Below, in pieces: positions 4,545-57,359 of a DNA stretch of 64,000 bases. A program made the translations under genes and the position numbers. The first letter of the stretch is position 1; each line of letters begins with the position of its first letter. Under the pieces are notes generated by a model. The model was not told the DNA's origin and ran no database searches. It saw nothing but the letters and a program-made list of their open reading frames with translations. The DNA is taken from positions 75,794,891 through 75,858,890 of the forward strand of contig CM049317.1 of the NCBI GenBank assembly GCA_026874595.1. Direction: 5' to 3'. This DNA comes from Sipunculus nudus. Lineage: Eukaryota; Annelida; Sipuncula; Golfingiida; Sipunculidae.

Positions 4545-7020
4545 AACCGTTTGACCGATCAGGCTAAAAATTTTGCACAAATGTAGCCCTTTGATAGCTA
4601 TATAACATACACTAAAATGATGGCGCCACCTGCAACCATTTTTGCACAGCGTCCGTCTGTTCATCTGCCTTGGGATAATATTACTCGTATCTCAGCAGTT
4701 GTTTGACTTATCCACCTGAAATTTTGCAGTTTTATACATCCTGGACAGGTTTCTTGATTTTATGACAGGTGTCGCCACCTACATTCTCATTTTCTCTACA
4801 GACATTCAAGCTCATATCTCGGAAACCGTTTGACCGATTAGACCAAAATTGTGCATGTGTCTAGATCTCACATAGCTCTTCATCATAGGCAAAACTGGTG
4901 GTGCCACCTGCAACCATTTATGCACAGCGTCCATCTGTTCATCTGCCTTAGGTTAAAATCACTCATATCTCAGCAGTGGTTTGACTTATCCAACTGAAAT
5001 TTTGCAGGTTTATACATCCTGGACAGCTTTCTCGATTTTATGACAGGTGGCGCCACCTACATTCACATTTACTATGCAGACATTCAAGCTCATATCTCGA
5101 AAACCGTTTGACCGATTGGGCCAAAATTTTGCATGTGTCTAGATCTCACATAGCTCCTCATCATAGGCAAAACTGGTGGTGCCACCTGCAACCATTTTTG
5201 CACAGCGTCCATCTGTTCATCTGCCTTGGGATAATATTACTCATATCTCAGCAGTGGTTTCACTTATCCACCTGAAATTTTGCAGGTTTATACATCCTGC
5301 ACAGCTTTCTCGATTTTATGACAGGTGGCGCCACCTACATTCACATTTACTCTGCAGACATCCAAGCTCATATCTCGGGAACGGTTTGACCGATAGGGCC
5401 AAAATTTTGCATGTGTATATAGATCTTACATAGCTCTTCATCATAGGCAAAACTGGTGGTGCCACCTGCAACCAGTTATGCACAGCGTCCATCTGTTCAT
5501 CTGCCTTGGGATAATATTACTCATATCTCAGCAGTGGTTTCACTTATCCACCTGAAATTTTGCAGGTTTATACATCCTGCACAGCTTTCTCGATTTTATG
5601 ACAGGTGGCGCCACCTACATTCACATTTACTCTGCAGACATCCAAGCTCATATCTCGGGAACGGTTTGACCGATAGGGCCAAAATTTTGCATGTGTATAT
5701 AGATCTTACATAGCTCTTCATAATAGGCAAAACTGGCGGTGCCACCTGCAACCAGTTATGCACAGCGTCCATCTGTTCATCTGCCTTATGATAAAATCAC
5801 TCATATCTCAGCAGTGGTTTGACTTATCCACCTGAAATTTTGCAGTTTTATACATCCTGGACAGGTTTCTTGATTTTATGTCAGGTGGCGCCACCTACAT
5901 TCACATTTACTCTGCAGACATTCAAGCTCATATCTCGGGAACCGTTTGATAGATTAGGCCAAAATTTTGCATGTGTCTAGATCTCACATAGCTCCTCATC
6001 ATAGGCAAAACTGGTAGTGCCACCTGCAACCATTTATGCACAGCGTCCATCTGTTCATCTGCCTTGGGATAATATTACTCATATCTCAGCAGTGGTTTCA
6101 CTTATCCACCTGAAATTTTGCAGGTTTATACATCCTGCACAGCTTTCTCGATTTTATGACAGGTGGCGCCACCTACATTCACATTTACTCTGCAGACATC
6201 CAAGCTCATACCTCGGGAACGGTTTGACCGATAGGGCCAAAATTTTGCATGTGTATATAGATCTTACCTTGCTCTTCATCAAGGCAAAACTGGTGATACC
6301 ACCTGCAACCAGTTATGCACAGCGTCCATCTGTTCATCTGCCTTATGATAAAATCACTCATATCTCAGCAGTGGTTTGACTTATCCACCTGAAATTTTGC
6401 AGTTTTATACATCCTGGACAGGTTTCTTGATTTTATATCAGGTGTCGCCACCTACATTCACATTTACTCTGCAGACATTCAAGCTCATATCTCGGGAACC
6501 GTTTGATAGATTAGGCCAAAATTTTGCATGTGTATAGATCTCACATAGCTCTTCATCATACCCAAAACTGGTGGTGCCACCTGCAACCATTTATGCACAA
6601 CATCCATCTGTTCATCTGCCTTAGGTTAAAATACTCATATCTCAGCAGTGGTTTGACTTATCCACCTGAAATTTTGCAGGTATTTTACATCCTTGACAGC
6701 TTTCTCGATTTTATGACAGGTGTCGCCACCTACATTCACATTTACTCTGCAGACATCCAAACTCATATCTCGGGAACCGTTTGACCGATTAGGCCAAAAT
6801 TTTGCATGTGTATAGGTCTCACATAGCTCTTGGCGCCACCTGCAACCACTTATGCACAGCATCCATCTGTTGATCTGCCTTTGGTTAAAATCACTCATAT
6901 CTTGGCAGTGGTTTGACTTATCCACCTGAAATTTTGCAGGTTTATACATCCTGGACAATTTTCTCGATTTTATGACAGGTGGCACCACCTACATTCACGT
7001 TTAAGCTGCAGACATCCATG
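4545..7020. repeat. Satellite array, ~280-bp dimeric unit, about 9 copies
   Basis: The landmark GCGTCCATCTGTTCATCTG (or a close variant) recurs near 4648, 4926, 5206, 5486, 5764, 6043, 6320, 6598 and 6856, giving a period of about 278-280 bp. Each unit has two related halves of about 140 bp. One half holds CTCATATCTCGGGAACCG and ends CCAAAATTTTGCATGTG. The other holds CTCATATCTCAGCAGTGG and ends CTGAAATTTTGCAGGTTT. The junction between halves is AGGTGGCGCCACCT, a perfect 14-bp palindrome in the units at 5045, 5323, 5603, 5883 and 6161 and altered in others. Neighbouring units at 5176-5713 are almost identical, which implies recent amplification. Open frames of 85-120 codons along the array follow from the repeat sequence and shift frame between units (280 is not a multiple of three), so they are not genes. 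Confidence 0.92.
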
Positions 7021-15139: not shown

Positions 15140-15384
15140 TCAAGTGCATTTGGCCTTTTTCTCACATAACACTCCTTTCTTGGAGAGTTCACAAGCGCTG
15201 TCAAAATGCTTGAAATCTGACGTAGAAAATGCCAGACGATCTTCATAGCCCATGAAATTATTTGGTTCGCCAAACTTCCATTCTATGAATGTGACTGGTT
15301 GACCCGTAGATTCCCAAACCCAGTGGCTCACATTTTCCTGAACTGTTCCTGATGTCCAGTATCCCTCGCCGTGTCCAATTTCAA
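15140..15384 (-). CDS. Lectin (minus) exon 3: CTLD C-terminal half and stop
   Basis: Acceptor tttctag is followed by 245 nt beginning in phase 1 with EIGHGEGYWTSGTV, then WVWESTGQPV, WKFGEPNN, and the end DSACELSKKGVLCEKK. These are the canonical second-half CTLD strands. EPN is present. The C2 cysteine of the usual C2-C3 bridge is missing (EDRL), leaving SAC without its normal partner, and WND is not conserved. Confidence 0.9.
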
Positions 15385-18300
15385 CTAGAAAGCAAGTTAC
15401 TATTATAGTCAGGTTGTCTCTTTACGCGGACATGTATTTAAGACAAAAGGGGCATATTCTAGTTAATGTACTGGACTTTTATGCCAAACCTGGAACAAAG
15501 TGCAACATAAATTAAATCACTTGCATTTTTTTGTTTAAACTCTGAAGAAATACATATAAAAAGGTCGAAAAAAACGCCTTGGGGGGAAAGTCATGTTATT
15601 CTAATTTGACTATTGAGTATTAAGTTTGACTTAACTTAGCTGCACATTGTCAAATAAAACTTGGTCTTTACCCCTATAAATGACCACTCATTTGAAAGTT
15701 CTCCTCATTGCCTGTCTGTTGAATACAAATAAGATGTATATTCAGCAATAAAAACGATTTTAAGCATATTGACCACGACAGGGCTCGACAATAGCCCCTA
15801 CCAATTTATACAAGGGATTGGGAATGTCGTGAGAACAACTTTTCCTAGTGTCAGAAAGTTGCCGGTTTGGCCTCCGATATACCAGCCCATGCCCATGACA
15901 CAATTTAAGGGAATATCAGTTTCCAGTTTTAAAAGCTTGAAGAGTTTCTTACAAACAATGTCTTAAGTCGGGGGCGTCTGTGTGTCATCATGGTAAGCAT
16001 TATGACGTCACAATTCTAACAATTTTAAGTTGTTCTTTATTTGTTTCCACTCGCAAAGAAACACTGCAGTTGCAGAAACCGTGCAAAGACCCATAATATC
16101 TCTGTGCTTGCCCAATATTACCACCCCGTAAAGGCGATGCTGACTGAAGAAAAAAAATGGTTTAACAAGACTTTTATTATATCCATTATATTCTGCCCTG
16201 AAATATTAAGAGGGTTTCAATTATACCGTAAAAGAAACCCCACTAAAATTAAGTTAACTATGTGAACAGATAGTTATGCAGACATGTTACAGGACTCTTC
16301 TGTTAAAAGGGCCATCAAACTAACAGAAAAAGCATACCTTTGATTAACAAACTTTCAAAGTGTGATTACAGATTTTGAAAACTACTGGTAGGGAGAGAAA
16401 GAGTGCTTTCCCATGTATTTGCAACATTTTAACAATACAATTAGGCAAATATTATAAATTTAAGTGTATGGGCACACTAAGTGATATTTCAAGTTTAAAT
16501 GGTACTTTCCTTGAACAGACTTCATTTCATATAGACTTGGAAACCCTATCTGGACGATTTTGTTTTCTAAATCAGCATGAGTTAATTTGATTAATATTGA
16601 CTTCCAATTTATTTACCTGGTACTGATAAACTAGCGTTGCTTTAAATGACACCTCGGATGTTTTGCATCTCTTCTTCTGTTTCAATATTGGCGGTAGTAG
16701 CATTTGTTTAGTGATAAAAAATTAAAGTTTAAGTTAATTTACCTGGTACTGATAAACTAGCGTTGCTTGAAATGACACCTCGGATATGTTACAATATTCT
16801 TCTGCTTCAATACTGATGGGAGTGGCATTTGCTTTGTGATAAAATTTAAAGTTAAAATTAATTAATTTACCTGGTACTGATAAACTAGCGTTCCTTTCAA
16901 TGGCACCTCGGATGTGTTGCATCTCCGCTTCTGTTTCAACACTGACGGGAGTCGCATTTGCTTCCTGACAAAACTTTTCTACTTCCGGGTAGACAAGTCG
17001 CGGTGATGGTTGAAATTTATAGCAGGAGGTTGGGTTAGACTCACCTGTTCTGAACGGATGACCAAATGGTGGGTAACATGGAGAACCTATTGAACCAAAT
17101 AAAAACACATGGCAGTGCATAGACACATGGTCATAGGTAATACCCTTTTATACTTTTATCGAAAAAAAGGAGAATGGCTTTGGCTCGGGATAAATGTACA
17201 ATGTTTGAAAAGACTGTTCTTGATTTTCATCAAGTTATTCTCAGTTGTTCAAGGTGATGTAGTTCTTATGCATATGAATATCTTATTGGGAATTTATTTG
17301 ACACATAAAATGCTATTTATACAATACATGCAACAAAGCCAGATGCAAAACATGCGCAATAATAACACGGGGAGAAACTTTAAACATTAAAAGTCAAACC
17401 TATAAGGTACGAGGACATTTAAGCTGCGAGTCGAGGGGAGTGGTGTATTGTATACAATGCAGGATCTGTCCAAATATTTCATACATAGGTGAAACTGGAG
17501 AAACCTTGAGACAACGTGTCAACGGCCATAGACAAACCATTAGCTCAAACAACCGCTTTGTGCCAATAGGAAAACATTTCTCTGAAAACAGACATCAGGA
17601 ATCGGACATGAAAATATGTGTTTTAATGGGTAATCTGCCAGATACACACAACAGAAGAATATGGGAACTGAAACTCAGTTTGACTGTATAAATATGGGAT
17701 TAAACAGAGATAATGGATTCCTAACCCATTACAAAGACTAAACATAGGACTCAACTATTTTAGACTATGTACATACATTTTGATTTTTACACCAGTACAC
17801 AACACAACAATTTAAAACTTGGAACACTCCCTTGCTTTTAAGGATCAGTTACCACTTCAATGGACACCTGCTACCTGGAAATCATGATCACTAATCCACC
17901 AATCCCCTTTTTCAGCCAGCACCGACACAACTTAACAATAGAACCGACAGGCTATGCCATAATCCTCGTCAACTGAACCATACTGGGAACAGCTACCTGA
18001 GGAACAGCTCCATTTACACCTGAGGAAGGGGGCCGAGCACCCGAAAGCTTGTGTACAAGAACCTACACACAGCTAGTCTTTTTCAAAAGGTGTCAACCAA
18101 TTACATTACTTTTTGTAAGTAACAGACTAGCACGGCATTTCAAAACTTTATAATATTTCACATGTATACGTATATTGCTTCTATCATACTAAAAGCAACG
18201 CAACCATACATTTAAAGATTCATTGAAAACTTGACTAACATCAATATTAAATTACATTTCTCAGTGTTCATTTACAAATTACAGCCATTAAAAACTACCC

Positions 18301-26248: not shown

Positions 26249-27050
26249 ATGAAGAACACCACAATATTGAAGCTCTTGCCTGTCATCATTTCAGTTACAG
26301 GTAAATTTTGATGAAGTCTAAAGTTTGAAAATACTAAAAATGCATCGTAAAAAAACAAAAAGATATGATACAATAGCTTTTTAATATGTGAAAAGAAACA
26401 TACTTATAAATCTACTTAATTGTCTAATGCACCTTTAAACAAGGTACTCACGGGAAAGAAAAAGAGGACAGCAATCGTCTAACTGTTTTTCGAAGTCTGT
26501 GCATCAGTGATAACGTTGTGGCTATCCTATCTTTAATCAGCCTTGCCCATGCGACCCCACAACACGGAATATGCAGTGAGTATGATCAAATATGATCGAT
26601 AAAGTAAACCTATTACAAAGCAGTCAATGTCCGACTTATAAAATGATCTAGGTAAAATACGTATCACTTGTTATTAAACTTGTTATTACACCCTAGTTGC
26701 TTTTATCAAAATATAATTTACTTAAATATATTTCACCTTGAGAGCTTCTTTCACCGTGTACATTGATATGATAACTTACATTGCAACTTATCGATCTATA
26801 TAAACATGAGATGTATTCTCTGCATTCCATAAAGAACCCGTGTGTAAGCCACCATTCGGCTACCTGTTTACAAAAGATGCCTATCAGAAAAACTCCTGCT
26901 ATGAATTTCGACCAAATCTGCTCCTGAAATATCCGGCTGCACAACAAAACTGCACTCGAAGTGAATCTGCTCTCGTCAGTATTGAATCTGAGGATGAGAT
27001 GCTGCACCTTCGTCGAATTGTTGAAGACAACCCCGGACTAATCGTGTCAG
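26249..27050 (+). CDS. Lectin exons 1-3, duplicate copy A (partial gene)
   Basis: Coding exons 26249-26300 (signal peptide MKNTTILKLLPVIISVT), 26444-26575 and 26835-27050 are identical in structure to copy B and all remain open, with intact GT donors. No terminal CTLD exon follows before copy B begins, so on its own this unit would encode a truncated protein without the WTSG-to-LCEK half. Exons 2 and 3 are phase 1-1 with lengths divisible by three. Splicing from copy A to the exon at 32555, or inclusion of both sets, would therefore keep frame. It could be an alternative promoter and first-exon set, a dead partial duplicate, or an assembly artefact; sequence alone cannot decide. Confidence 0.6.
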
Positions 27051-27450
27051 GTAAACCTTAATCCCGGACTAGTTGTGTCAGGTAAACCACAACCCCAGAC
27101 TAGTTGTGTCAGGAAAACCTCCTCCCCGTACTAGTCGTATCAGGTAAACCTCAGCCAAACGTTTCGGTGTACATCAACAAAGACTAGAAGTATCGGGTAA
27201 ACCCCAACCCCCGACTAGTCGTGTCGGGTTAACCTCAACTCCAGACATGCGTGTAAGGTAAACCTAAACCACAGGCTAATCGTGTCAGGTAGGCTTAAAC
27301 ATCAACCCCCGACTAGTTGTGTCAGATAAAATCAAACCCCAAATAAGTCGTGTTAAGTCAGATAAACCTAAATCCCATAACAGTTATGTCAGGAAAAACT
27401 CAACCCTAGATTATTCGTGTCAGGTAAATCTCCCCCCCCCCAGACTAGTC
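27051..27450. repeat. Irregular donor-derived repeats, intron 3 (copy A)
   Basis: Immediately after the exon 3 donor, variants of CCCCAGACTAGTCGTGTCAG followed by GTAAACCT recur about every 30-40 bp, at least ten times. The consensus equals the exon 3 end plus donor. The repeats end in a C-run near 27431-27440. Confidence 0.88.
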
Positions 27451-29763: not shown

Positions 29764-32700
29764 GTAAATTTTGATGAAGTCTAAAGTTTGAAAATACTAA
29801 AAATGCATCGTAAAAAAACAAAAAGATATGATACAATAGCTTGAAAATGTGAAAAGAAACATACTTATAAATCTACTTAATTGTCTAATGCACCTTTAAA
29901 CAAGGTACTCACGGGAAAGAAAAAGAGGACAGCAATCGTCTAACTGTTTTTCGAAGTCTGTGCATCAGTGATAACGTTGTGGCTATCCTATCTTTAATCA
30001 GCCTTGCCCATGCGACCCCACAACACGGAATATGCAGTGAGTATGATCAAATATGATCGATAAAGTAAACCTATTACAAAGCAGTCAATGTCCGACTTAT
30101 AAAATGATCTAGGTAAAATACGTATCACTTGTTATTAAACTTGTTATTACACCCTAGTTGCTTTTATCGAAATATCATTTACTTAAATATATTTCACCTT
30201 GAGAGCTTCTTTCACCGTGTACATTGATATGATAACTTACATTGCAACTTATCGATCTATATAAACATGAGATGTATTCTCTGCATTCCATAAAGAACCC
30301 GTGTGTAAGCCACCATTCGGCTACCTGTTTACAAAAGATGCCTATCAGAAAAACTCCTGCTATGAATTTCGACCAAATCTGCTCCTGAAATATCCGGCTG
30401 CACAACAAAACTGCACTCGAAGTGAATCTGCTCTCGTCAGTATTGAATCTGAGGATGAGATGCTGCACCTTCGTCGAATTGTTGAAGACAACCCCGGACT
30501 AATCGTGTCAGGTAAACCTTAATCCCGGACTAGTTGTGTCAGGTAAACCACAACCCCAGACTAGTTGTGTCAGGAAAACCTCCTCCCCGTACTAGTCGTA
30601 TCAGGTAAACCTCAGCCAAACGTTTCGGTGTACATCAACAAAGACTAGAAGTATCGGGTAAACCCCAACCCCCGACTAGTCGTGTCGGGTTAACCTCAAC
30701 TCCAGACATGCGTGTAAGGTAAACCTAAACCACAGGCTAATCGTGTCAGGTAGGCTTAAACATCAACCCCCGACTAGTTGTGTCAGATAAAATCAAACCC
30801 CAAATAAGTCGTGTTAAGTCAGATAAACCTAAATCCCATAACAGTTATGTCAGGAAAAACTCAACTCTAGATTATTCGTGTCAGGTAAATCTCCCCCCCC
30901 CCCCCCAGACTAGTCGTTGTCACACCGCCAAAGGACTGGACGACCAGGTTATTTTTAAATGGTAAACCAAACGATTCCTCAATACCGCATTCACTTTACC
31001 TGTTACTGATTGCAATCACGGTAGAAACACATCGCCGGATTACCAGTCCGATGCAATTTGCAATATCCACTCTGAACTCTGTGACAGAGCTTCCTATTTG
31101 GTCGTTCTCAGATATTGACTTTCTACGCTCGGAATATCATCTGTAAGCTGTTTCAGACACAGAACAGACGCGGCACTGCCTCAGACGACGGCCAGATTGC
31201 GCCTCTCTGGCGCCCTGAACACGGCGTTTGTAACGACATCGTGTTATCCACAGTTTATATACGTATTCTCACGTCACAAGTCCTGACGGTCTTGCGACCC
31301 ATCATTTTACAGAACTTTACGTCTTGTCATGGCTTGTCATCAACTGTACTAAAATGGACAGGCCTCTAGAGAACAAACTATGAACAAACGCAAAATAAGC
31401 AGGTGGGTCTCGGTTCCCACGAAATAACACTGTACTGAAATTAACATCGAATGAGGCACCTGTGTTCCCTAACCAAAGTTTTTACACTTACATCTAAACA
31501 TGATACTCCAAATTGCTGTGCAATGAATTATAAAAACAATCATTTGGTTATAATCTCACTTAAATATGCCATCAAATAACTAATTCACAGTCCTCTGGTG
31601 ACAGTTTAGTCAGGTAAACCTCAAGCCAAGATTAATTCCGTCAAATAAACCTGAACCTAAGACTTATTCCGTTCAGATAATCCCCAAACCCAGACTAGTT
31701 ATATCAGGTAAACCCTAGGCACAAACTAATCGTTTCGAGTGAACCTCAACCCCATATTGGACATGTCACGTATACCTCAACCCCAGATAAGTCATGTGAG
31801 GTAAATCCCATGCCCTGACTAGTAGAATTACATACGTTAATATACAGACACACGTTGCAATTCTATTCATTATTAGTCAACCCCAGACTAGTAATCTTTT
31901 GTAAACTTAGATATCCTGATCACAACGCTTGAACACAGAGAGATAAATCAAAGTACATTAGTTAACATCATTGGATAAATCATAGTAAATTAGGCCCCCC
32001 GATGTGATTTTGACTCTGCTGGCTTTTTCTTATGGGGTACTAAGGTATTTAATTACATGTGGTATTAAAGCGTTCAAGTAGTCCATGAATAAACAATTAT
32101 CATACGTGTTCTTTTCTAGTTATCATTAAGTTTCTATAAACTGTCCGACCTCCAGGTAATAATAGCTTATTGATCATCGTTACAGCTTTGCAAGATTAAT
32201 ACATCGACTTAACATATTACTTCATATTGGGCTAAATATCTACATTATTAAACACTCGAGGGTTTAATAATTAATTATCATCAAATTTTATCAACAAAAT
32301 TGACGGTTTTGCTTGTTCATCGACTGCGCGAAAAGGCCGCTCAGACTCTCCTGTCCTGTTGGTATAAACCGCCCCAGAATCGGGCCTTCGAAAGAAATCC
32401 TGAAGACACTTTCGAGTAAGAGACGTTTCCCCATTAGTCCAAACAGGATGTCATCTCTTACAAAATAGTAATGAAGCCATAAGAACAATTTTACTCACAT
32501 AATCTCCACTTTTTGTGTTTTATTTTCCTGCAAATCTTTTGCCTATGGTATTAGGTTGGAAACCTCCCTTCCACCGACGGAACGGATACTGGACTTCCGG
32601 AACTGACAAGCTGGAGGAAGGACATTGGATTTGGGGAGCCACAAGTCAGCCAATAACCTATCAGAACTGGGGATTCACTGAACCAAATGATCTCTTCTCA

Positions 32701-32805
32701 AAGGAGGACAATCTTTTGTTAGGAACCTATAACTACAAATGGATGGACTGTAGTTGGAAGTTAAAGGCTGCAGTGCTTTGTGAGAAAAGGGCCATGTGCG
32801 TCTAA
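29712..32805 (+). CDS. Secreted C-type lectin, four coding exons (gene model)
   Basis: Exons 29712-29763, 29905-30036, 30296-30511 and 32555-32805 join with every junction in phase 1 to 216 codons plus TAA. Residues 1-18 are a signal peptide. Residues about 19-61 are a linker with two cysteines and a hydrophobic patch (VVAILSLISLAHA). The rest is one long-form CTLD: PVCKPPFGYLF, SCYEF, QQNCTRSESALVSIESE, then NGYWTSG, WIWGATSQ, NWGFTEPND and VLCEKR. EPN points to mannose-type specificity in the family. The EDC cysteine is replaced (KEDNLLL) and WND reads WMDC, so the second disulphide and the Ca2+ site are unusual. Intron 3 is about 2 kb and full of donor-derived repeats. The acceptor of exon 3 (cataaag) is weak, but phase and paralogue length support it. 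Confidence 0.82.
29905..30036 (+). CDS. Lectin (plus) exon 2: linker
   Basis: 132 nt, open, between acceptor aaacaag and a strong donor gtgagt, phase 1-1. Encodes a charged start (THGKEKEDSNRLT), one cysteine in SLCISDN, a hydrophobic run and PQHGIC. The minus-strand lectin lacks this exon. It matches no domain I recognise. The hydrophobic run could be a second membrane-interacting segment. Confidence 0.65.
30296..30511 (+). CDS. Lectin (plus) exon 3: CTLD N-terminal half
   Basis: 216 nt, phase 1-1, ending CGTGTCAG before gtaaacc. Contains the long-form cysteines (VCKPPF, SCYEF), the helix cysteine QQNC with an NCT sequon, LVSIESEDEMLHLRR, and the end PGLIVSG. The last ~24 nt of this exon plus the donor are the ancestor of the 31-bp minisatellite units in this gene's intron and at 40106. 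Confidence 0.88.
30512..30912. repeat. Irregular donor-derived repeats, intron 3 (copy B)
   Basis: Same array as at 27051, with a longer C-run (about 14) at 30893-30906. It lies directly inside the transcribed intron of the complete lectin gene model. Confidence 0.88.
31598..31905. repeat. Second cluster of donor-derived repeats (copy B)
   Basis: Counterpart of 28135-28440, nearly identical to it. Contains several CAGGTAAA or GAGGTAAA cores that look like splice donors inside intron 3. Confidence 0.75.
32555..32805 (+). CDS. Lectin (plus) exon 4: CTLD C-terminal half and stop
   Basis: Acceptor ggtattag precedes WKPPFHRRNGYWTSGTDK, WIWGATSQPITYQNWG, FTEPNDLF, YNYKWMDCSWKLKA and AVLCEKRAMCV, then TAA at 32803-32805. 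These are the second-half strands of a CTLD with EPN. It is the only intact terminal exon for the two upstream exon sets. Confidence 0.92.
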
Positions 32806-35090: not shown

Positions 35091-35254
35091 GTACGAGAAT
35101 ACGAGACAAAGCACATTTAAAGGCATTGCTGGTTCTCCCGTTCTCGACTTAGTGCCCAACAAGAAGACAACAAGAAGAAACAGCATACCCATCTGGCCGT
35201 CTACTACCTACCCATGTGTCTCCGCCCAGTTCGATCCAGCCAGCCAGTGCTGAA

Positions 35255-35950
35255 ACGGCGTATATCCAAGCTTCAAGGGTCCAACTGCTCCCTGATATAT
35301 GTTTACGTCCAGGGCCTCACGGTTCCACCTGCCCCCTGATAAAAGTTTACGTCCAGGGCCTCGAGGTTCCATCTGCCCCGGATAACTGTTCACGTCCAGG
35401 GCTTCAGAGGTCTACCTGCGAACTGGTAACTGTTCACGTTTGACCTCAAATGTCAACCTACTCCCGGATAACTGTAACTCCAGGGCTTCAAGGGTCCATC
35501 TGCTCCCAGATCAACGTTACCTCCAGGGCGTCAACGTTCCCCTGCTCCTTAATAACTGTTTACGTCCAGGGCTTCAACGGTCGACCTGCTCCCTGAAAAA
35601 TGTGTCCTCCAGGGCTTCAACGGCCCCCTGCTCCTTGACAACTGTTTACCTCCAGGGCTTCAAGGGTCCATCTGCTCTCTGATAACTCTTTTTCTCCAGG
35701 GTTTCAAGGGTGGCCTGCTCCCTGATAACTGTTAACATCCAGGGCTTTAACTGTCCAACTGCCCTTGTTAACTGTCACGTCGAGGGCTGCAAGGGTCCAC
35801 CTGCTCCCAGATAACTGTTTACCTCTAAGGTTTCAAGGGTCCAACTGCTCCTTGACAGCTATTTACCTCCAAGGCTTCAAGGGTCCACCTGCTATCTGAA
35901 TACTGTTTACCTCCAGGGCTTCAACGGGCCACTTGCTCCCTGATAACACG
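35255..35950. repeat. Minisatellite, ~44-bp unit, about 15-16 copies
   Basis: The unit contains GTTTACGTCCAGGGCTTCAA followed by GGGTCCACCTGCTCC and CTGATAACT. Copies recur about every 44 bp with substitutions and small indels. It is GC-richer than its surroundings. Open frames of 61-80 codons on both strands are by-products of the lack of stops in the repeat. Confidence 0.9.
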
Positions 35951-44329: not shown

Positions 44330-45460
44330 TAAAGATAGATAGGTAGATAGATATATTTACTGTACTCGGCACAGTACTAAATAAAACAAAAAATATAGGT
44401 TTACCGTTAACATCCTACCTTTATATTGACTGACGTGAACCACGACTACCCACCCTCCGCACCCCCCTACCCCCATCCACCCTCCCCCTCCCATGGACCT
44501 TGTCTGGTGATAGATTTCGTGGTAATAGAAAGTTTCATTCTAAGGAATGTAGCCCTTCACCATGTTTGTGTGTGCGTGGGTGTGTGCGTATGTAGGGGGG
44601 GGGGGGGGGGGGAGGGGTGCCCTATGTGGGTTACTCTCAAAACTTTTTTTGCATATTCAGTATTATTTTTCTCACATTACCAGTTCAATCATGCATAAAT
44701 GACTTTACATTTCTGAAAATTACTTGATGATGTTCCTAATTCCGAATAATGTTCCGGATCCACAGAAAAAAAATTCTAATCCACTTTCATTGACCCATTC
44801 TCGAAATGCTCTGAAATTTCATGAGATTACGTTCATATTTGCGTTATGAATAATGTGATCAAACACACACACACAAACAAACACACACAAACGCAAATGA
44901 ACGCATAACCTCCTGCAGAAGCGATGACACATTCAGTTTTATCAGCATAACCCCAATGCATGCAGTAGCTTTGCAGTGCCCAGATTATAAGGCCCCTTTG
45001 TGCATCCCTAAAATAAACAAGATAACCGCAACGATCTGTTTCGAATACCACACCCTAGATTTTTGTGGATAAGGGCTTTAAATTTCGTATCATGACAACT
45101 TTCATTTTAGTGTTACCTGACACTATCAAGCATACACTGGATCCATGGACCGGATCACGTGGTTCTAATCTGCAAAACCAACACTTGACCAGAAAGTTAC
45201 ACATGACACGTGCAGCCTATAAAAGATCAATTTGCTGGTATCTCCTGATATAGCGACAGAAGCCCTCAGCGAATCCAGACTCTGATACAGTCGAAGAAAG
45301 AGACAGGAAAGGTGGGTGTTGTTCATTAAACTTCAGGGGCGTAGCCAGAATTGAGGGAAGGGAGGGGGCCATGATCACTATCGGATCCAGAAATTCCTGA
45401 ACGGGTGTGTGTGTGTGGGGGGGGGGCGCTTATATGTATGGGTATTATGAAAACTAAGTG

Positions 45461-45748: not shown

Positions 45749-45850
45749 ATGGAGACTGTATTTGTGTGCCTGATGCTGCTGATGACCACGTGTTCTGGCC
45801 ACAGCGGGATCTTATCAGAAGATTCCCAGGCGAAGGATGACCAAATAAAG
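45749..45850 (+). CDS. Kringle-C1q gene exon 1: signal peptide
   Basis: ATG at 45749 begins METVFVCLMLLMTTCSGHSG, a classical signal peptide with cleavage likely after the small residues near position 17-20, followed by the acidic ILSEDSQAKDD. Donor gtattt at 45851. Its assignment to this gene rests on strand, position and lack of any other candidate; the phase mismatch with the kringle exon calls for an intervening exon. Confidence 0.65.
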
Positions 45851-48800
45851 GTATTTCTATGTATAGTTATTCTTTTAAAATGTTAGGTCGTATTTCGCTC
45901 CCTCCATGTTCCCGTTCTATCGGATTATTAAGAGATTAAGGCCATTTTATTGTAGCCACTGTCCGTAGTGAACCAGGAAGTTATATGTTCACCATGCGAA
46001 ACCTTTATTATTATCTTGATATCTTATTCGCAACTTCTTTAATTATTAAATGATCAATAATTAATAGTTAATTATTAATATTTTGTATTATTCCTTCCAT
46101 GTTTCATTGTCTTTTACTTATAACCACTCTGATCAGTTTTGGACCAACTGCATGACTGGCCTATCGTGCAAGCTTCTGTTTTAGAATGAGCTAACTATTT
46201 TTTTTCACATTTGCACAAAAAATACAAAAACAGATCACAGGGTGCACTGGGTCCAGTATTTCGTTTGAACATCGACCGCACACCCGCCGTGGAGAAGGGT
46301 GCTGCATACAACATCTCTTACCAAACCGCATTCAAATTATATAATTTATTGAAAATTCAAATGAAAATACATTTTTAGCAAACATGAAAGCATTTGTATG
46401 TTTAGAATTTGAATAATTTTAATATTTTCAGCTTGTTATAAGCCTGTGTTTTCAGTGTGGCTGGCCGATTTGACTATTCTGGCAACAAGAGTTAGCTGAT
46501 GGAATATTTGAATGAATTCATTAAATACAAATTCTCTCTTTGCAATAGGTCGTTTAATGTTCAGAATCAGCTGCCAAGACAGCTCTGTTTATTATTACCT
46601 GTAGACCGTGTACTTTTATTTACGTGACTGTTAAAAGAAAGAGGAACTTTTAGAATAGGTGTTTGAACTGAAATATATGAAAAATATTTCTGTTCTCATA
46701 GAAATAACACAGTAAAATAACATTTTTTCAGACATGTTTTCATCATTAAGATAACAAATTAAGGTTGCTAATCAAAATTTTCCTTTTCAGCCTTTGAGAA
46801 ATGCAATATATTTTCTAATGATGTTTTAATAAGCTGCCTGAATATATAATAAAAAAATACACTTTAGCCCTGTATTTTAGATACTACAGAGAAGGGGTTT
46901 AATTAGGGGTGAGTATTTAATTTACTTTTCTGTACAATTGTCCTTAATAAAAAGGATTTCGATATTTCCCATTTAGGACAAGTTTTGTGTGGAGCTAATC
47001 GCCGCCCTTTTGCGATACTTATCTTGATCTGTATGCACGTCTGCAGATTAACAATACGGCTCTGCATTTACCTTCCAATTTTAAATTGCAAAATACGAAA
47101 AAATAAAAAACAAGAAAACGTATCTCTTTAATAGGGTGCCTTTTGTATCTCAATGGCATTGCTCATACTCAACATGTACGATGTTAACAACAGTTAATAA
47201 CCTTTTATTTTCATGACCGTTTAAAAAAGAGGCTATGTATTTTTGGTTAACATTTTAGAATGTAAGTCCACTGTACTCGGTCTAGAGTACATGGGGATGA
47301 TAAGCTGGACGAAGACAGGCAGACGCTGTCAACATTGGACAAGCAACTACCCTCACAGGCATAAATTCCATTCCAACGAGAACTACCCAGATGGATCAGT
47401 AACCGCGGCGTCCAACTACTGTAGAAACCCCTCTCATCACTCTGTCGGGCCCTGGTGTTACACAACAGACAGATATAAACGATGGGAGACATGCGCGGTT
47501 CCTCTTTGTAGTAAGCGCTCCTTAAATCTTTTTTTTGTATGTGTGTGTGTGTGTGCGAGAGAGAGAGAGAGAGAGAGAGAGATAAGTAGTAGGAGTATTG
47601 CTAGCCGTAAATACACTAGGGGTTGGCCTACTCGAGTTATGACACAAGTCATACGGGAACATGAACTACAACCGCCATCAGCCTTTTTTTGCATCGACAT
47701 CTTTATAAAACCTGGTTAACCGTAACATAAGGCTTAAAGTGATCATATGATAGCTTACCTGTAGGCCATTGTAAATATTTGCATACATGAAAATATTTTT
47801 ATACTAATCGAACCTTACAGTTCATTACAAAGCACACAACGCTGACAGGTCAAGATACTTTCTTTTGTCAGAGGGGCAAAATTCCTCTAGATTTTGCCGG
47901 AATACATCAACTTCAGGTCCTGAGTCATTAGACAATGGGACGGCCAAATTTAATAACACAGGATTATTTGAACAAGATATTTTTAGGAATATACATCTGT
48001 TTGCAAACTCATTCCACAAAAAAAGGAAGCTATGAAATTTGATATGAAATTGAAATGAAATTAATATGAAATTGGAATCTCCCAAATTGAAAACTGCAAA
48101 GAAAATTTACTTCATTCCCATCACAAATTTAGTGATGATATTGATTCAATTGAGGATATTCGCGATGACAATTAAGTGAGGATATTGACGATGACAATTA
48201 AAGGGGCCCAATCACCTATCTGATCCTTATAAACTTAAGGGAATCCCGTGTAGCCTTTATAAAAAATAGGCCAGAAAACGTGGATATCACCGCACACAGG
48301 CTGCTTGTTTTGTTTATATCAACATGTTCATAATGTGTTGGTGCACGCCAAAATAATTAAAACGAATTCAACATGGGCATCTGGCAGCAAGTCAGATAAG
48401 CCAGAGCTTTGCCAATAGCGCTTTGCAACAAGTGACCTTTCTACCTCTGAATATTTGCAAACTACCAACTAAGGTTACATGTTTTTCCCGTTTGTCAACA
48501 ATGCTGTGTTTACAAACAGGTTGTTGATAAACAAGGTCATACATCCTTGACGAAGGCATTATAAGAACTTTTTACAAAATTTAACTTAGATCATTAATAT
48601 ATAAACAGAGGAAGCCAGATATCTCATAACCTTTTTTAACAGGTAGATGAATGGGATACCCATGACCTCCCCCCCCCCCCCGGGCCAACAGACTGAGATT
48701 AGGCCATGTCAATGAATCAGGGGGCTGTTTTATAAGGGCCCGCTTGGTTAAGCGGCTGCCATATATAGAAATCACCCTGTCCGTCAAGCTGTCCGTTTGT

Positions 48801-50492
48801 CCGTATGTCTGTCTGTCCCTCTGTTTCCGGATGAAAACTCAAGTTTGGATGGACATATGGATTTTAAACTTGATTTATACATGGCCCCCACTAAAGCAAG
48901 AACCCTTTTGCTTTGGGGGTCATGAGGTCAAAGGTCAAGGTCCCAGGACCCACATCCTTGAAAAGTTTGTGGATGCATTTGAAGCCAATCTTTTCATCCC
49001 AGATCTTCTGTCTTGCACATATGGCTTACCTGCCAATCAGGAAAGCTCGCTATCGATTTTCGAGTCACAAGGTCTGAGGTCAAGGTCGTAGTAGCCAGCT
49101 TTCTACAAATTCATTTCCGCATGATAACTCCAGTTTGGATGGATGGACAAATAGAATTCATACTTGACTTATATATGATCCACCACTTAAGGACGAAACC
49201 TGTAGATGGGGGTCATGAGGTTAAAGGTCAAGGTCATCTTCGAAAAGTTTGTGAATGTATTGTAAATGTTTCATCCTAAATATTTCACTTTTGGATAACC
49301 TAGCAATGGTAGAGAAACTATATCGATTTCGACATCACAGGTTCTAAGGTCAAGGTCACAAGACAATCCTACTGATTTTATATGCTGACCAGGATTATAG
49401 TTTAATATATCAGATGTAATTATGCCTCTGTTGCTTGACGATACTCAAAAGCTACAAATCTTTACACGATTATCACTGATTTAAACCTAAAAATCTTGGT
49501 TCAGTTGTTTAAATACTGTTATGTGTCAGTTCCCCCTGTCTCTGCATATTATCAGGTCTTTTATCAATTTTTCAAGCATCACTCAGCCGACACTGAAAGT
49601 CTATTGGCCTTTTGCGGGCCCTTCCTGACCTGTCAGTATTCTAGTTTCATATAAAAATATTTATTTTATAAAAAAAAAATCGAGGCAGCTTCTGTTATCT
49701 TTTCGCACTTAAGTGAAATTTAGACAATTTTTGTTTCAGCTGATATTGTATTCCACGTGGACATCCGAGGGGGTTCGGTGTTGCAAAACGTCGGTCGCGC
49801 TCGGCGAGTTCCGTACAACCACGTTAACATGAACGTCGACGGCGTCTATAAAGTTGGCCTGCATGCATTCGTTGCTTCCCAGCCCGGGGTTTACATGTTC
49901 ATGGTGGATGGCTTCTCCTCTTCAATGGGGCCAGGCTGTATCCAGCTCCGTAAGAACAACTTGGTGGTGGACCATGCCTACACTTTAGGTAGGTGTATAA
50001 TTCTTAAGAACATTACATTATTTTAGAGCAGGTAAAATACCATGGTCAAACAAAGGGCAAGTGTATGGTAGGACACAGTTATGTAACAAATTGACAAAAT
50101 GGGAATATTAAAACATAACATAATCAAGATAAGTTGTTTTAAACGTGATTATTGGTGTCTGAGTATATATTGGACATAAACAGTTTTCTGCAATACTCTC
50201 TCTCTTATATATATAAATATAATTATGGAACCTGCGTGAAAGATACCTGTTTAACAAGACCACCTGTCTATTAAGAACCGAAACATAGGTGTAACAGGTA
50301 CACGTATCGATTTATGTGCATAGTTTATGCTTCTATCTTCCAGGAGGCTTATCATCAATGTCGATCAGCAGACCACTGCAGCTCAAGAAAGGAGATTCTG
50401 TGTTCGTCACCATGTGTCCCACTGTACGTAACACACTCTACAATGACGGGAGGAATTCCTTCACCGGGTATCTCCTGACGCAGACGCTGTAA
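45749..50492 (+). CDS. Secreted kringle-C1q domain protein (gene model)
   Basis: Exons supported: 45749-45850 (signal peptide), 47259-47510 (kringle), 49740-49988 and 50344-50492 (C1q domain, TAA at 50490-50492). Kringle to C1q-a and C1q-a to C1q-b junctions are all phase 1 with clean GT-AG sites, so the kringle-C1q linkage is firm at sequence level. The signal exon ends in phase 0 while the kringle exon needs phase 1, so at least one small exon of 3n+1 nt between 45851 and 47258 is missing from this model, or the signal exon uses another donor. No collagen repeat is seen. Kringles bind proteins and sometimes lysine or carbohydrate in clotting factors. C1q domains trimerise and act as recognition heads in complement and in the large mollusc C1q families. 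A secreted trimeric recognition protein is the likely product (inference). Confidence 0.8.
46226..46285 (+). other. Tentative intervening exon in the kringle-C1q gene
   Basis: After acceptor-like aaaaacag at 46225-46232 an open frame continues exon 1 in phase 0 with ITGCTGSSISFEHRPHTR. A GT inside CGCC|GTGGAG would give the 3n+1 length needed to restore phase for the kringle exon. The donor is weak and there is no domain match, so this is only a candidate. Confidence 0.2.
47259..47510 (+). CDS. Kringle-C1q gene exon: complete kringle domain
   Basis: The 252-nt exon (phase 1-1) encodes one kringle with all six cysteines at exon residues about 2, 24, 55, 67, 79 and 84, matching the 1-6, 2-4, 3-5 bonding pattern. 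Hallmarks are CQHWTSNYPHRH, ASNYCRNP, GPWCYTTD and RWETCAVPLC. Where lysine-binding kringles have an acidic DxD after RNP, this one has SHH, so classical lysine binding is unlikely. The domain sits in a single exon bounded by symmetric phase-1 introns, the usual form of a shuffled kringle. The donor gtaagc is followed closely by GT and GA microsatellites. Confidence 0.93.
47537..47582. repeat. GT then GA compound microsatellite
   Basis: (GT)n followed by (GA)n starting about 27 bp after the kringle exon's donor, so length changes could affect splicing of that exon. Confidence 0.9.
47590..48820. other. Intron of the kringle-C1q gene
   Basis: No exon recognised. A minus-strand frame at 47825-48085 (NEFANRCIFLKISC..., SDKRKYLDLSALCAL) might be a transposon scrap, but I cannot assign it. 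C-run near 48668-48680. Confidence 0.45.
48825..49375. repeat. Intronic tandem repeat, ~289-bp unit, two copies, with AGGTCA motifs
   Basis: Unit 1 begins TTTCCGGATGAAAACTCAAG near 48825 and unit 2 begins TTTCCGCATGATAACTCCAG near 49114. Both contain GTTTGGATGGA, a TTGA-TTATA segment, GGGGGTCATGAGGT and AAAGGTCAAGGTC, a GAAAAGTTTGTG segment, and a final AAGGTCAAGGTC. Direct AGGTCA repeats lie at 48925-48937 (one-base spacer), 49077-49088, 49218-49236 and 49347-49358. No coding potential; the short open frames through it are chance. Confidence 0.8.
49740..49988 (+). CDS. Kringle-C1q gene exon: C1q domain, first part
   Basis: Follows acceptor ttgtttcag. It reads DIVFHVDIRGGS, then VPYNHVNMNVDGVYKVGLHA, FVASQPGVYMFMVDGF, and CIQLRKNNLVV. 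The pattern V.F...N..G.Y....F.A...G.Y.F is that of C1q/TNF-like beta strands A to E. 249 nt, phase 1-1, donor gtaggt. In-phase junctions to the kringle exon upstream and the final exon downstream. Confidence 0.88.
50344..50492 (+). CDS. Kringle-C1q gene final exon: C1q domain, last part
   Basis: Acceptor atcttccag precedes GLSSMSISRPLQLKKGDSVF, then VTMCPTVRNTLYNDGRNSFT and GYLLTQTL and TAA. LKKGDSV and the closing SFTGYLL match the C1q end (L..GD.V......SF.GFLL). Together with the preceding exon it makes a C1q domain of about 132 residues, the normal length. Confidence 0.9.
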
Positions 50493-50494
50493 GG

Positions 50495-50965
50495 GAGGAG
50501 GACCGCTCAATTGGTTCAGAACACCGGCAAAGCCCCCTACACCCAAACTATCGCAGCGCACTCTTATATTTGCTGAGAATCCTTCTATAATGCACTTTCT
50601 CGCTTCAGGATTCTGTGTCTTGCCCTTACGGCTAGCATTTTTTTTTACCACTATCACACGCGCACGCGGTTTCTTGCCCTAAATAAAATACGGCTTCCGA
50701 GATCATTAACCAAGAGCTGCAATAAAAGATCAATCTCTATTTGGAGTGTGTGTATTTTTATCTGGTGTGTGTTTGACCAAGGTGTGTGTATTTTATTTTG
50801 TGATGGTGTGTTCTGTATTCTGTGACAACTCTCCTTTACCATTTTTTTATTGTGTACCTCACGTATTTTATACAGTAAAGTGTTTTAGATAACATCTAAG
50901 AAACGCTAGACTTTGGTCCTCTTTTTGATAATCGAACATGACAGTCTTATTTATGCAAGGATACG
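50495..50965. other. 3' flank of the kringle-C1q gene
   Basis: Contains AATAAAATAC near 50683, usable as a polyadenylation signal. No further gene. The minus-strand 100-codon frame at 50355-50657 overlaps the C1q exon and is its shadow. Confidence 0.5.
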
Positions 50966-51000
<35 letters not shown>

Positions 51001-51840
51001 AAAATATTTATACAGGGTAGCCCGTTCAGACAAGATTGTCTGATCTGCCACAGGGCCCTGTTGGGCTACACAGATTATACAATGTATAAAACATGTAAGA
51101 TGCAATCAGAATTAATAAAAGTGGCTAAAGATAAAATAATGCAGCAAGATGGGATATTAAACATGAAAATATATAACTATGACATTTAACGTAATATAGA
51201 GCAAGATGTGATATAAAACATGAATATAAAACTATCACATGCAACGTAATATACAAGGCTATAATGATTGTAACATAAATATTAAATATATCAGAGTATG
51301 AAATAGCATGCATTATATGACATATAAAGCACATAATATGAGATTTATTACATGATACTTTTTTAAAGACCTGTAAGGAGGAGCAGTTTTTTCGAGATTG
51401 ATTTAATGTATTCCACAAAAAAGGACCTCGGCATAAAAATGATATCTTTAAGTAGTCTGTCCGAGGTTTGGATACATATAATTTATTGGAATAGCTATTG
51501 AGTGTGTCATGTTTGTGGACTTGGTGAACAAAAGTGAACCGGTTGGTCATATAGGATGGACTTAAGTTATTCAGACTTTCAAACATAAGGATGCGAGTCA
51601 GATATTCATGTCTTTATGCATCTGATTTAATGCCAAGGCACTGACGGATAGCTGTAACGCCAAATTCATGATTAAAATTGCGACTTATAATACGTGCGGC
51701 TAGATTTTCAAGACTTTGGATGCTAGTAACACATGAAGAAGGCCCATTTCCTCGTGACGTTATGTGCGTACTTTTTGTCAAATTATTACTTATCAGCATT
51801 ATCTTTCTTTGATTAACTCCAGATAAAATACTTGACCCTG
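50966..51840 (-). mobile_element. LINE 3' end with pseudogenised ORF2 and ATT tail
   Basis: On the minus strand an open frame from 51799 reads SIQSLENLAARIISRNFN up to a stop at 51614. It then continues in the same frame as ILMFESLNNLSPSYMTNRF, KHDTLNSYSNKLYV, PRTDYLKISF and GPFLWNTLNQ. This is the typical C-terminal region of non-LTR retrotransposon ORF2. The in-frame stop shows decay. Beyond it the 3' end has a hairpin-capable GGGCTA...TAGCCC segment (51019-51067) and ends in a (TAA)n tail seen as ATT repeats at 50968-50999. Truncated at its 5' end near 51840, as usual for LINE insertions. It lies just downstream of the kringle-C1q gene, convergent with it. Confidence 0.85.
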
Positions 51841-52145
51841 ACTATTTTTTTTTCTACTGATATGACAAAAAAATAACAATCACGTACTTTATGCCCTGGT
51901 GATTATATTTCGGAAGGAATTTAGTAAGTTCCAGACTGAATTCTTGTGAACATTCACTGTATTGGGAACATCTATGTAATCAAAACAGTCGAAATGTAAT
52001 CAATTCGTCACAAAATAATGCCAGTACTCCTACATAAATCGAAAAATGCAATTATGTGCCCAACACATGGATTTACTTCAAGCCACTGATTGATAAATGA
52101 CTTTGGTTTTCTAGTTAGACCTAAACACAGTGTAACAAATTTGTG

Positions 52146-54988: not shown

Positions 54989-55558
54989 CAGTAGAGCGCC
55001 GTTTATCCAAATGCGTCGGGGGACAAGCTGTTTCTTTTTTTTCGGAAAAAAAACTTTCAGAAAAACGGTCAGAGTTCTAGTGACAAGTTCGTACGACAGT
55101 GAAAGATTAAGTGATAATAAAAATAATATTGGATTTATTGCATGGCTAGATTGCCATTAATCAGTTTAACCTGTTTTTAGTACATGTGCGTGCCGTTCTT
55201 AAACAAATTCACCGGTGGGAAAGATCAAATGCCATCGCCATTAGTGAAGCTTGCTTCGTTTCTGTTACAGCCCAAAGGCGGCGTCAGTGCAGTACACGTA
55301 TAACGAGTGAAAGGCAAGGGATTTAAACGTTTTTGAACAATTATAGAGCTTACCGATTATTCATAAATTTTTCTTTGAGTCAGGGGTACCTTGCAACTTC
55401 AATATGTATTGACGTGTTTCTTTCTCCTGAGTTTATATCTGAAAGGGTTGATTTTCCAATGTTGAAATCCCTCGCGATTATGTCACCACGGTCGAGCCGC
55501 TCAAGGATTGTCTGCTTGTCCGCAAAGCATAACGCCGTCTGTATAACGCGCTCTACTG
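54989..55558 (-). mobile_element. Compact Tigger/pogo derivative with HTH fragment
   Basis: The left end CAGTAGAGCGCCGTTTATCC (54989) and the right end, read on the minus strand, CAGTAGAGCGCGTTATACAG (from 55558) form imperfect inverted repeats. The right flank is TA; the left flank is TT, probably a mutated TA. Starting almost at the right repeat, the minus strand reads ALCFADKQTILERLDRG and DIIARDFNIGKSTLSDI, the N-terminal helix-turn-helix (psq/pogo type) of Tigger transposases. The rest of the transposase is deleted, giving a 570-bp non-autonomous element. Confidence 0.75.
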
Positions 55559-56149
55559 TATTCAAAAGATGTTACCTTATACCAGAACAAATGTTGTGAA
55601 CGAATTTCATGTACCATTCGGAAATAACTACTCCCTTCCTTAGGGCCTGTGTTATACTGTGAGAGAATGCAGGATTTATTTTGAAGATACGTTGAAGGTT
55701 TCTTTTGAAAGATACGCTGAGGGTTTCTTTTGAATAAAAAATAGAAACTATGACAAACAAATCTTAAAGGCGAAAGAAGTGTCTGCCTCAATACAGCCGA
55801 ACCTCACCAGGTTATTCCTCCATAAGCTACTCAATAGAAAAATACTTCAATTAGCCATATGAGCAATCAACCAAGTATGAAACAGTTTCAGTGAAATCAA
55901 AAATTAATAGCCGGCAAATGTCTCGGAATATTTTACAGAAACATACATGATTAGATATTTAGGTAAGATCGAGCACAAGTCATATTCCTTATAGGGATAT
56001 GTGTTAAGCTATAAACACAGATGAGTAAAGTTGTGGTGTAATTAAGTAACAGTATGAAATTAGACATGACCCCTTGTTCTTTGCCTATACAAACATATGA
56101 TGTTAATGGATGATCATCATTTTTATTACTCCATAAGTTTAACGTTATG

Positions 56150-56400: not shown

Positions 56401-56597
56401 TTACTTTATAGTAAAATGTATACTGCCACAAATGTCCTTGAATACCGTGCTAAGTCAAAAAGCAAGAATACAGAGGAAAAACTCATGGAAGTGATACATT
56501 AGATCATCTTGATCTCTGAACCTCTTTTTACAAGACAACTCCTAATGGGCCTGGTGGTTGTATTGTTTCAATCAAGTTTCGAAGGATATGTCATTAC

Positions 56598-57359
56598 CGT
56601 GGTTGAGTTTAGCATCCCTTCCAATTATCTGTTGTGTGTACTTCATCTCAGATTTTGTTTCAATGCTGACCAAAGAGGCATTCATCTTCTGACAAACCTG
56701 CTGCGCCAATGTCTGATTCACATGTCGATTTGGTTGATTTTTTTTATGGTCATTGAAGAGTGATATCGGGTTATCAGATGCCGGCCAGTACTTACATACG
56801 GAAATATGTGTCTTTATCACATTGTTTTTAATACCTTCCTTCCTCATTCCAGACACAAGGATTATTCCTGTGTGATTGTTTTAGATCAAGTTATAACCAT
56901 GGCATAAGCTGTCTTTAGATATTCTATAACATTACATTTTTTTCATTATATTATAACAATATGACTCAGTCATACAATGGCTTTAGCTGTCGTTAGTTAT
57001 ACTGATAAAGCAATATATTATTTAAGTATATTATAACAACATGACTCACTCCACTGAGAACTCATAATTGTTTTAGGGGTTTTCTCCCGTCATCAAAAGA
57101 AACCTTCAGGAAACTTTAAATACTCCTATATATAGGCAAAGCACAAGTTACTTTTAAATAAACAGGACACATTTCATGGAGGAAAATAAAACAAGATGTA
57201 TATTTCGATCATCCTTTATAATACTGCATATTGATTAAGCAAGTAAATATTTTTCCTTATGAAAATATGTGACGTTTTCTTACCCGTCTGACCAAAAGCT
57301 ACTTCAAGGAGGAGGATTGTTAGGCTGCTCATCAGGCCTAGGCCAATGACTAGGAATAT
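56598..57359 (-). pseudogene. C-type lectin gene fragment (signal exon + CTLD first half)
   Basis: At 57359-57284 the minus strand has acceptor ttttcag, then ILVIG-like hydrophobic sequence, an internal ATG (57332) reading MSSLTILLLEVAFGQT plus one base, and donor gtaaga: a good signal-peptide exon ending in phase 1. At about 56811-56598 it has a CTLD first-half exon with SVCKYWPAS, AQQVCQKMNASLVSIETKSE and a donor gtaatg in phase 1. The only AG near its start lies in phase 0, the SCY cysteine is missing, and no WTSG-to-LCE exon is found downstream. It is a partial or dying lectin gene of the same family; an unrecognised linker exon could rescue the phase. Confidence 0.6.

Follow-up and report, generated by a model that had tools for sequence, protein, structure and literature searches.

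The window, by which we mean the whole stretch of 64,000 nucleotides of Sipunculus nudus DNA analysed here, carries on its forward strand a gene in which a kringle exon is followed by two exons for a C1q head (Table 1). It is a real gene, belonging to a small real gene family, and combines two well-known domains. The kringle and C1q exons had been recognised in a sequence-only reading; phase 1 at both of the junctions described there and the two Pfam domains were confirmed. The introns of these exons are bounded by AG and GT, and the exons form a single open frame. The G+C content of the four exons drawn in that reading is 0.49-0.53, against 0.30-0.40 in five measured non-coding stretches (flanks and introns). 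A motif scan of the window found one convincing kringle and one C1q domain, and neither Rfam nor tRNA scanning gave a match there.

Table 1. Positions in the window of the kringle–C1q gene and neighbouring features, and genomic positions of the other family loci
Feature	Position	Strand	Details
Possible TATA box and 5' non-coding exon	45218..45311	+	TATAAAAG at 45218; weak
Signal-type exon (METVFVCLMLLMTTCSGHSGILSEDSQAKDDQIK)	45749..45850	+	phase-0 donor AAG/GTATTT; homologous exon in three of four other loci
Microexon, 28 nt	46881..46908	+	ILQRRGLIR plus one base of the following codon; phase 0 in, 1 out
Kringle exon, 252 nt	47259..47510	+	symmetrical phase 1-1; six cysteines; Pfam PF00051
C1q exon 1, 249 nt	49740..49988	+	phase 1-1; Pfam PF00386 across both C1q exons
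Terminal C1q exon	50344..50492	+	stop codon TAA at end
Two polyadenylation-type hexamers AATAAA	50682..50726	+	at 50682 and 50721
C-type lectin exons	15143-17147; 56575-56880	-
C-type lectin exons	26810-27058; 30271-30519; 32503-32802	+
Near-identical ORF sets, same order	26.2-27.9 kb; 29.7-31.4 kb
CENP-B_N domain ORF	55383-55571	-	Pfam 5.3e-05
Mobile-element-like ORF	51128-51841	-	by eye, this and the next row look like a non-LTR reverse transcriptase tail and a Penelope-type element; no Pfam match
Mobile-element-like ORF	17302-17688	+	see previous row; no Pfam match
Tandemly repeated ORF stretches	4985-6988; 35121-35732
Further family loci	C8 7.29 Mb; C8 6.08 Mb; C17 21.7 Mb; C7 78.9 Mb		C8 copies called C8a and C8b

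The splice sites had been described as good. Scored with rough matrices of general splice-site frequencies, the C1q sites bear this description out: among all AGs and GTs of the window, C1q exon 1 ranks in the top 3.2% for its acceptor and in the top 0.9% for its donor, and the last C1q exon in the top 0.1% for its acceptor. It does not extend to the kringle exon, where the same matrices give a weak acceptor, in the top 31%, and a middling donor, in the top 6.9%. The position of the kringle acceptor is identical in all five loci of the family.

An upstream signal exon had also been proposed. The exon itself stood, being found at four of the five family loci; its direct splice to the kringle exon was ruled out, since a phase-0 donor would meet a phase-1 acceptor and a microexon had been missed. 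Three GTs in the signal frame are in phase 1 (45792, 45861 and 45882), each preceded by T, which together with the kringle exon's initial AA gives TAA at all three. The chain as first drawn therefore cannot splice. Alternative first exons with a phase-1 donor were absent from 38-47.2 kb under strict settings, and loose settings yielded two in 40-47.2 kb, both poor. The ORF at 46190-46375, considered as a possible exon, had no Pfam match. A frame and splice-score search for bridging exons, run over 45.87-47.24 kb, pointed to a single candidate site, for which two acceptors are possible. A 19-nt form (46890-46908) has the best matrix score, which was also reached by 4 of 300 first-order Markov simulations and by 6 of 92 window tiles (both strands, the site's own tile possibly counted), so that by score the microexon is suggestive at most. 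As all other loci show a 28-nt microexon, the 19-nt form was rejected and the window microexon is most likely the 28-nt one. Including it in the splice gives an open frame of 780 nt encoding 259 residues, and no lesion was seen in the coding exons. The start ATG is immediately preceded by AG, which leaves room for a non-coding exon 5' of it; the candidate in Table 1 is followed by a strong donor, AAG/GTGGGT, at 45312, and three other family loci gave no match to TATAAAAG 5' of their signal exon.

Kringle–C1q loci elsewhere in the genome

The genome (1.43 Gb, 153 contigs) was searched with the 216-residue protein as query. Among the best 150 of 432 candidates, at least four further loci encode a kringle and then a C1q head on one strand, and the five loci, the window included, are spread over four contigs. 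The C8 copy at 7.29 Mb is 70, 72 and 78% identical to the window across three exons. The signal exons of the three other loci that have one show 68, 76 and 71% identity over 34, 34 and 24 matched residues; at C7 the exon was looked for and none was recognised. A genome search with the signal and microexon peptide returned four matches from four candidates, namely the window and those three other loci with a signal exon. A 28-nt microexon lies between AG and GT at the matching place in all five loci, and those outside the window encode ELQRRGLLK, DLHRRGLVK, NLPRGGSLK and VLQRMGLIK; the C17 microexon was identified by eye. Spliced alike, C8a also gives 259 residues, with Pfam E-values of 6.5e-21 for the kringle and 4.4e-12 for C1q, and no lesion was seen in its coding exons. 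The kringle exon of C8b holds an in-frame stop, with the C1q exons still open; C7 has a frame shift close to the C1q end; and C17 has no GT where the kringle donor is expected.

The conserved order at five loci argues strongly against two chance neighbours. If the kringle and the C1q head belonged to two genes that were simply adjacent, their seeming join would reflect a chance phase match, expected one time in three, and the matrix ranks of the kringle acceptor and donor, together with the missing GT at C17, would be in keeping with such an arrangement. Against it stand the identical order on four contigs, the confinement of the family signal exon to kringle–C1q loci in the genome search, the single convincing kringle and C1q in the window's motif scan, and the outcome of a search for signal-type exons between the kringle and C1q exons, which gave weak candidates only (donor scores at most 0.20). 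The same linkage together with a family-restricted signal exon is a strong argument against chance adjacency, and we regard separate genes as highly improbable. Separate genes were also the outcome that the sequence-only reading had named as fatal to it, and the conserved linkage at five loci contradicts them. Its central claim, a kringle linked to C1q without collagen, was upheld by the same order at four other loci and by the one open frame. That a kringle is joined to a C1q head without collagen in a single gene is well supported.

Pairwise Nei-Gojobori dN/dS was computed across the five family loci with our own script. For the kringle, all 10 pairs have dN/dS below 1 (0.17-0.42; window against C8a 0.31), with dS above 1, and so unsure, in 4 of them. 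For C1q it is likewise below 1 in all 10 pairs (0.17-0.87; window against C8a 0.17), dS being above 1, and so unsure, in one pair and the C7 pairs taking in that copy's frame-shifted end; four pairs with C17 are elevated (0.51-0.87). These values bear on whether the 252-nt kringle exon is an optional cassette. Because it is symmetrical (phase 1-1), a splice from microexon to C1q is also in frame, and skipping would yield a plain signal–C1q protein, with the kringle form as a lesser isoform or as a remnant in decay. C8b, with its stop confined to the kringle exon, would suit this idea. It is countered by the kringle dN/dS between the window and C8a and by the retention of six of six kringle cysteines in the window copy, and we consider it improbable.

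Predicted protein and related architectures

In the 259-residue protein, Pfam detects Kringle (E=1.4e-20, 73.8 bits, cut-off 34.3) and C1q (E=7.2e-11, 42.8 bits, cut-off 23.7, profile positions 16-127 of 127); the spliced 216 residues gave 1e-20 and 4.8e-11, both above the curated cut-offs. The C1q match above the cut-off places the product among C1qDC proteins, and the Pfam match with six cysteines identifies the other domain as a kringle. The N-terminus is hydrophobic and, judged by eye, resembles a signal peptide. The spacing from kringle to C1q is minimal (PLC-T-DIVF). There is no collagen Gly-X-Y repeat before the head in the 259-residue protein, and hence no collagen tail as in C1q-like type I; Kringle and C1q are its only Pfam matches, with none to Ig-like, SUEL or protease domains. 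No relatives among prokaryote genomes and viral contigs were confirmed.

The best-scoring solved structures for the C1q part in a sequence search are complement C1q heads, and the best solved relatives of the kringle (PDB phmmer) are plasminogen and HGF kringles. All six cysteines are kept. The NPDND motif of plasminogen kringle 1, whose acidic pair we take to be the paired Asp of the lysine-binding anionic centre in plasminogen kringles, aligns with NPSHH in the window, and the alignment places no plasminogen-type paired Asp there. Classical lysine binding by the window kringle is predicted to be unlikely because the acidic pair is replaced. Plasminogen and HGF proteins carry a protease-type domain. 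Their kringles are the nearest solved ones by sequence; they have several, whereas the present protein has one, no protease match and substituted lysine-site acids.

Several known proteins pair a binding module with a C1q head. Passages of PMC6835236 distinguish secreted C1q types with collagen, a coiled coil, several heads or no extension, and portions of PMC10672478 give a similar classification. Bivalve C1q heads mostly lack collagen tails, and bivalves have sSUEL/C1q fusions, with 16 such genes in the eastern oyster, according to sections of PMC6835236, which also cite gastropod Ig-C1q QREPs. QREPs resemble the present protein in having an N-terminal binding module and a C-terminal C1q head (passages of PMC6835236 and PMC10672478); they differ in that their modules are Ig-like domains, of which Pfam finds none here, where one kringle takes that place. 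In sSUEL/C1q proteins, too, a module with binding properties lies N-terminal to the head (same passages of PMC6835236), but it is SUEL, for which Pfam likewise gives no match, in place of a kringle. The sghC1q proteins of molluscs have a related head, and 10 of 12 relatives in the present genome share a phase-1 acceptor before it; a kringle and linker separate signal from head in the window protein, which thus departs from the plain signal-then-C1q layout. Heads of the sghC1q type are mostly unsplit among the matches listed, whereas those of four of the five family loci are split by an intron. Proteins with MACPF and a kringle, described in a mussel (excerpts of PMC4581086) and an annelid (excerpts of PMC2762978), likewise join a kringle to an immune-type domain in lophotrochozoans, but that domain is pore-forming and here it is C1q. 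A limpet mucus protein with several domains also includes a kringle (excerpts of PMC7333891).

The sequence-only reading had not recognised the kringle–C1q architecture from described families. The word 'kringle' has zero occurrences in the texts of PMC6835236 and PMC10672478, and no description of a kringle–C1q protein was found among the open-licence papers listed, although unreported database entries may well exist. After Ig-C1q and SUEL-C1q, the gene would add another case, apparently independent, of a binding module fused to a C1q head, and bears on how collagen-less C1q heads couple to other functions.

Origin of the exon combination

Trees were built solely from the loci fetched. The C1q tree (18 heads) unites the family's five in a single clade (98/96), in which the C7 head branches outside the remaining four (90/86). 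In the tree of 28 kringles, the five family kringles group with the kringle at C10:24738009 (87/47) and form no strict family clade, being grouped alone in 26% of bootstraps. The C10:24738009 kringle (locus L039) may be close to the sequence from which the inserted module came. The genome holds at least 150 kringle matches (best 150 of 350 candidates). A C1q family search gave at least 141 C1q matches (best 150 of 203 candidates), and the window's own split head is absent among those listed; a C1q-head query, with all 115 candidates scored, gave 92. Large clusters of kringle exons occur at C9 28.89-28.95 Mb, at several places on C10 and at C15 50.3-50.6 Mb. Four C1q matches of equal bit score recur about every 6.95 kb at C8:24669291-24690530, probably representing a tandem array of recent origin.

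Outside the family, no kringle was found at 23 C1q loci (16 places) within stretches reaching about 1.5 to 6 kb upstream; the list of C1q loci without a kringle numbers 26, among which L015, L029 and L035 are pieces of family loci. Directly before the head, 10 of 12 non-family C1q matches have, judged by eye, a phase-1 acceptor (AG with two codon bases left), in five of the ten with exactly the CAG/CT of the window; of the remaining two, L045 has no AG there and the match at L049 begins within the head. The family signal exon was not seen at the single-C1q loci read. Seven single-C1q loci scanned for signal-type first exons gave one weak candidate (L048). An intron at a shared position interrupts the C1q head of all four family copies other than C7, which has none; most C1q heads in the genome are unsplit among the matches listed, and the C8 63.16 Mb head (L050) is split elsewhere. 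Since most heads are unsplit and C7 is without the intron, it probably either arose inside the family or disappeared from C7.

Judged from exon phases and relatives, the simplest history would be that a symmetrical kringle exon (phase 1-1) entered the phase-1 intron just 5' of the head exon in a putative secreted C1q gene. The kringle-rich genome would have provided the donor setting, and copies would later have come to sit on other contigs. Five copies in one genome offer material for studying this plausible exon-shuffling route, in which a 1-1 exon enters a phase-1 intron.

Possible function and genomic neighbourhood

Heads of the C1q/TNF type are trimeric. The predicted protein would consist of a signal-type N-terminus, a short charged linker partly encoded by the microexon, one kringle and a C1q head, with no collagen. 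From its family, the head is expected to trimerise, and since the last kringle cysteine almost adjoins the head, three kringles may be placed at the base of the trimer. Once secreted, the protein may bind a microbial, glycan or matrix ligand with its C1q head, its kringle or the two together. By analogy with QREP and sSUEL/C1q proteins, whose layout it resembles, it is likely to act in recognition or adhesion as a secreted and probably trimeric protein, and the loss of the plasminogen lysine site favours multivalent recognition or adhesion over a plasmin-like lysine binder. A soluble recognition factor, as the sequence-only reading had suggested, is plausible; its lineage specificity, also suggested there, stands as a conjecture, the five loci all coming from one genome. 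Taken together, a gene of five coding exons for a probably secreted kringle–C1q protein with a trimeric, ligand-binding head, having arisen by exon insertion, is an account that we consider moderately likely. That it stands for a new soluble class, in which an exon-shuffled kringle supplied as an in-frame cassette is no longer engaged in lysine or protease chemistry and serves as a second recognition arm on the trimer, is possible but doubtful, and we propose it tentatively. A kringle–C1q protein would also give a kringle a role beyond clotting and growth-factor chemistry.

The protein might instead act outside immunity, as an adhesive or as a component of matrix or mucus (in a glue, a shell or an epithelial secretion), the trimer cross-linking kringle ligands. 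A kringle protein is counted with the putative adhesive proteins of a limpet in parts of PMC7333891, whose reference list includes a title reporting C1q from slug glue; parts of PMC10672478 mention C1qDC proteins in shell formation and byssus. The C-type lectin exons of the window fit a recognition cluster equally well, and we hold an adhesive role to be rather unlikely.

The kringle–C1q gene sits among these C-type lectin exons, which lie on both strands (Table 1) and fit a recognition neighbourhood around it. Two lectin exon pairs (5'/3'), joined by eye, gave Lectin_C matches of 7e-08 and 1.7e-05, above the cut-off; taken singly, two of six lectin-type ORFs matched Pfam below the cut-off and four had no match. 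The two near-identical ORF sets in the window apparently arose when a region of lectin exons was recently duplicated locally. The window also contains an ORF with a CENP-B_N domain, ORFs that by eye resemble a non-LTR reverse transcriptase tail and a Penelope-type element, and two tandemly repeated ORF stretches.
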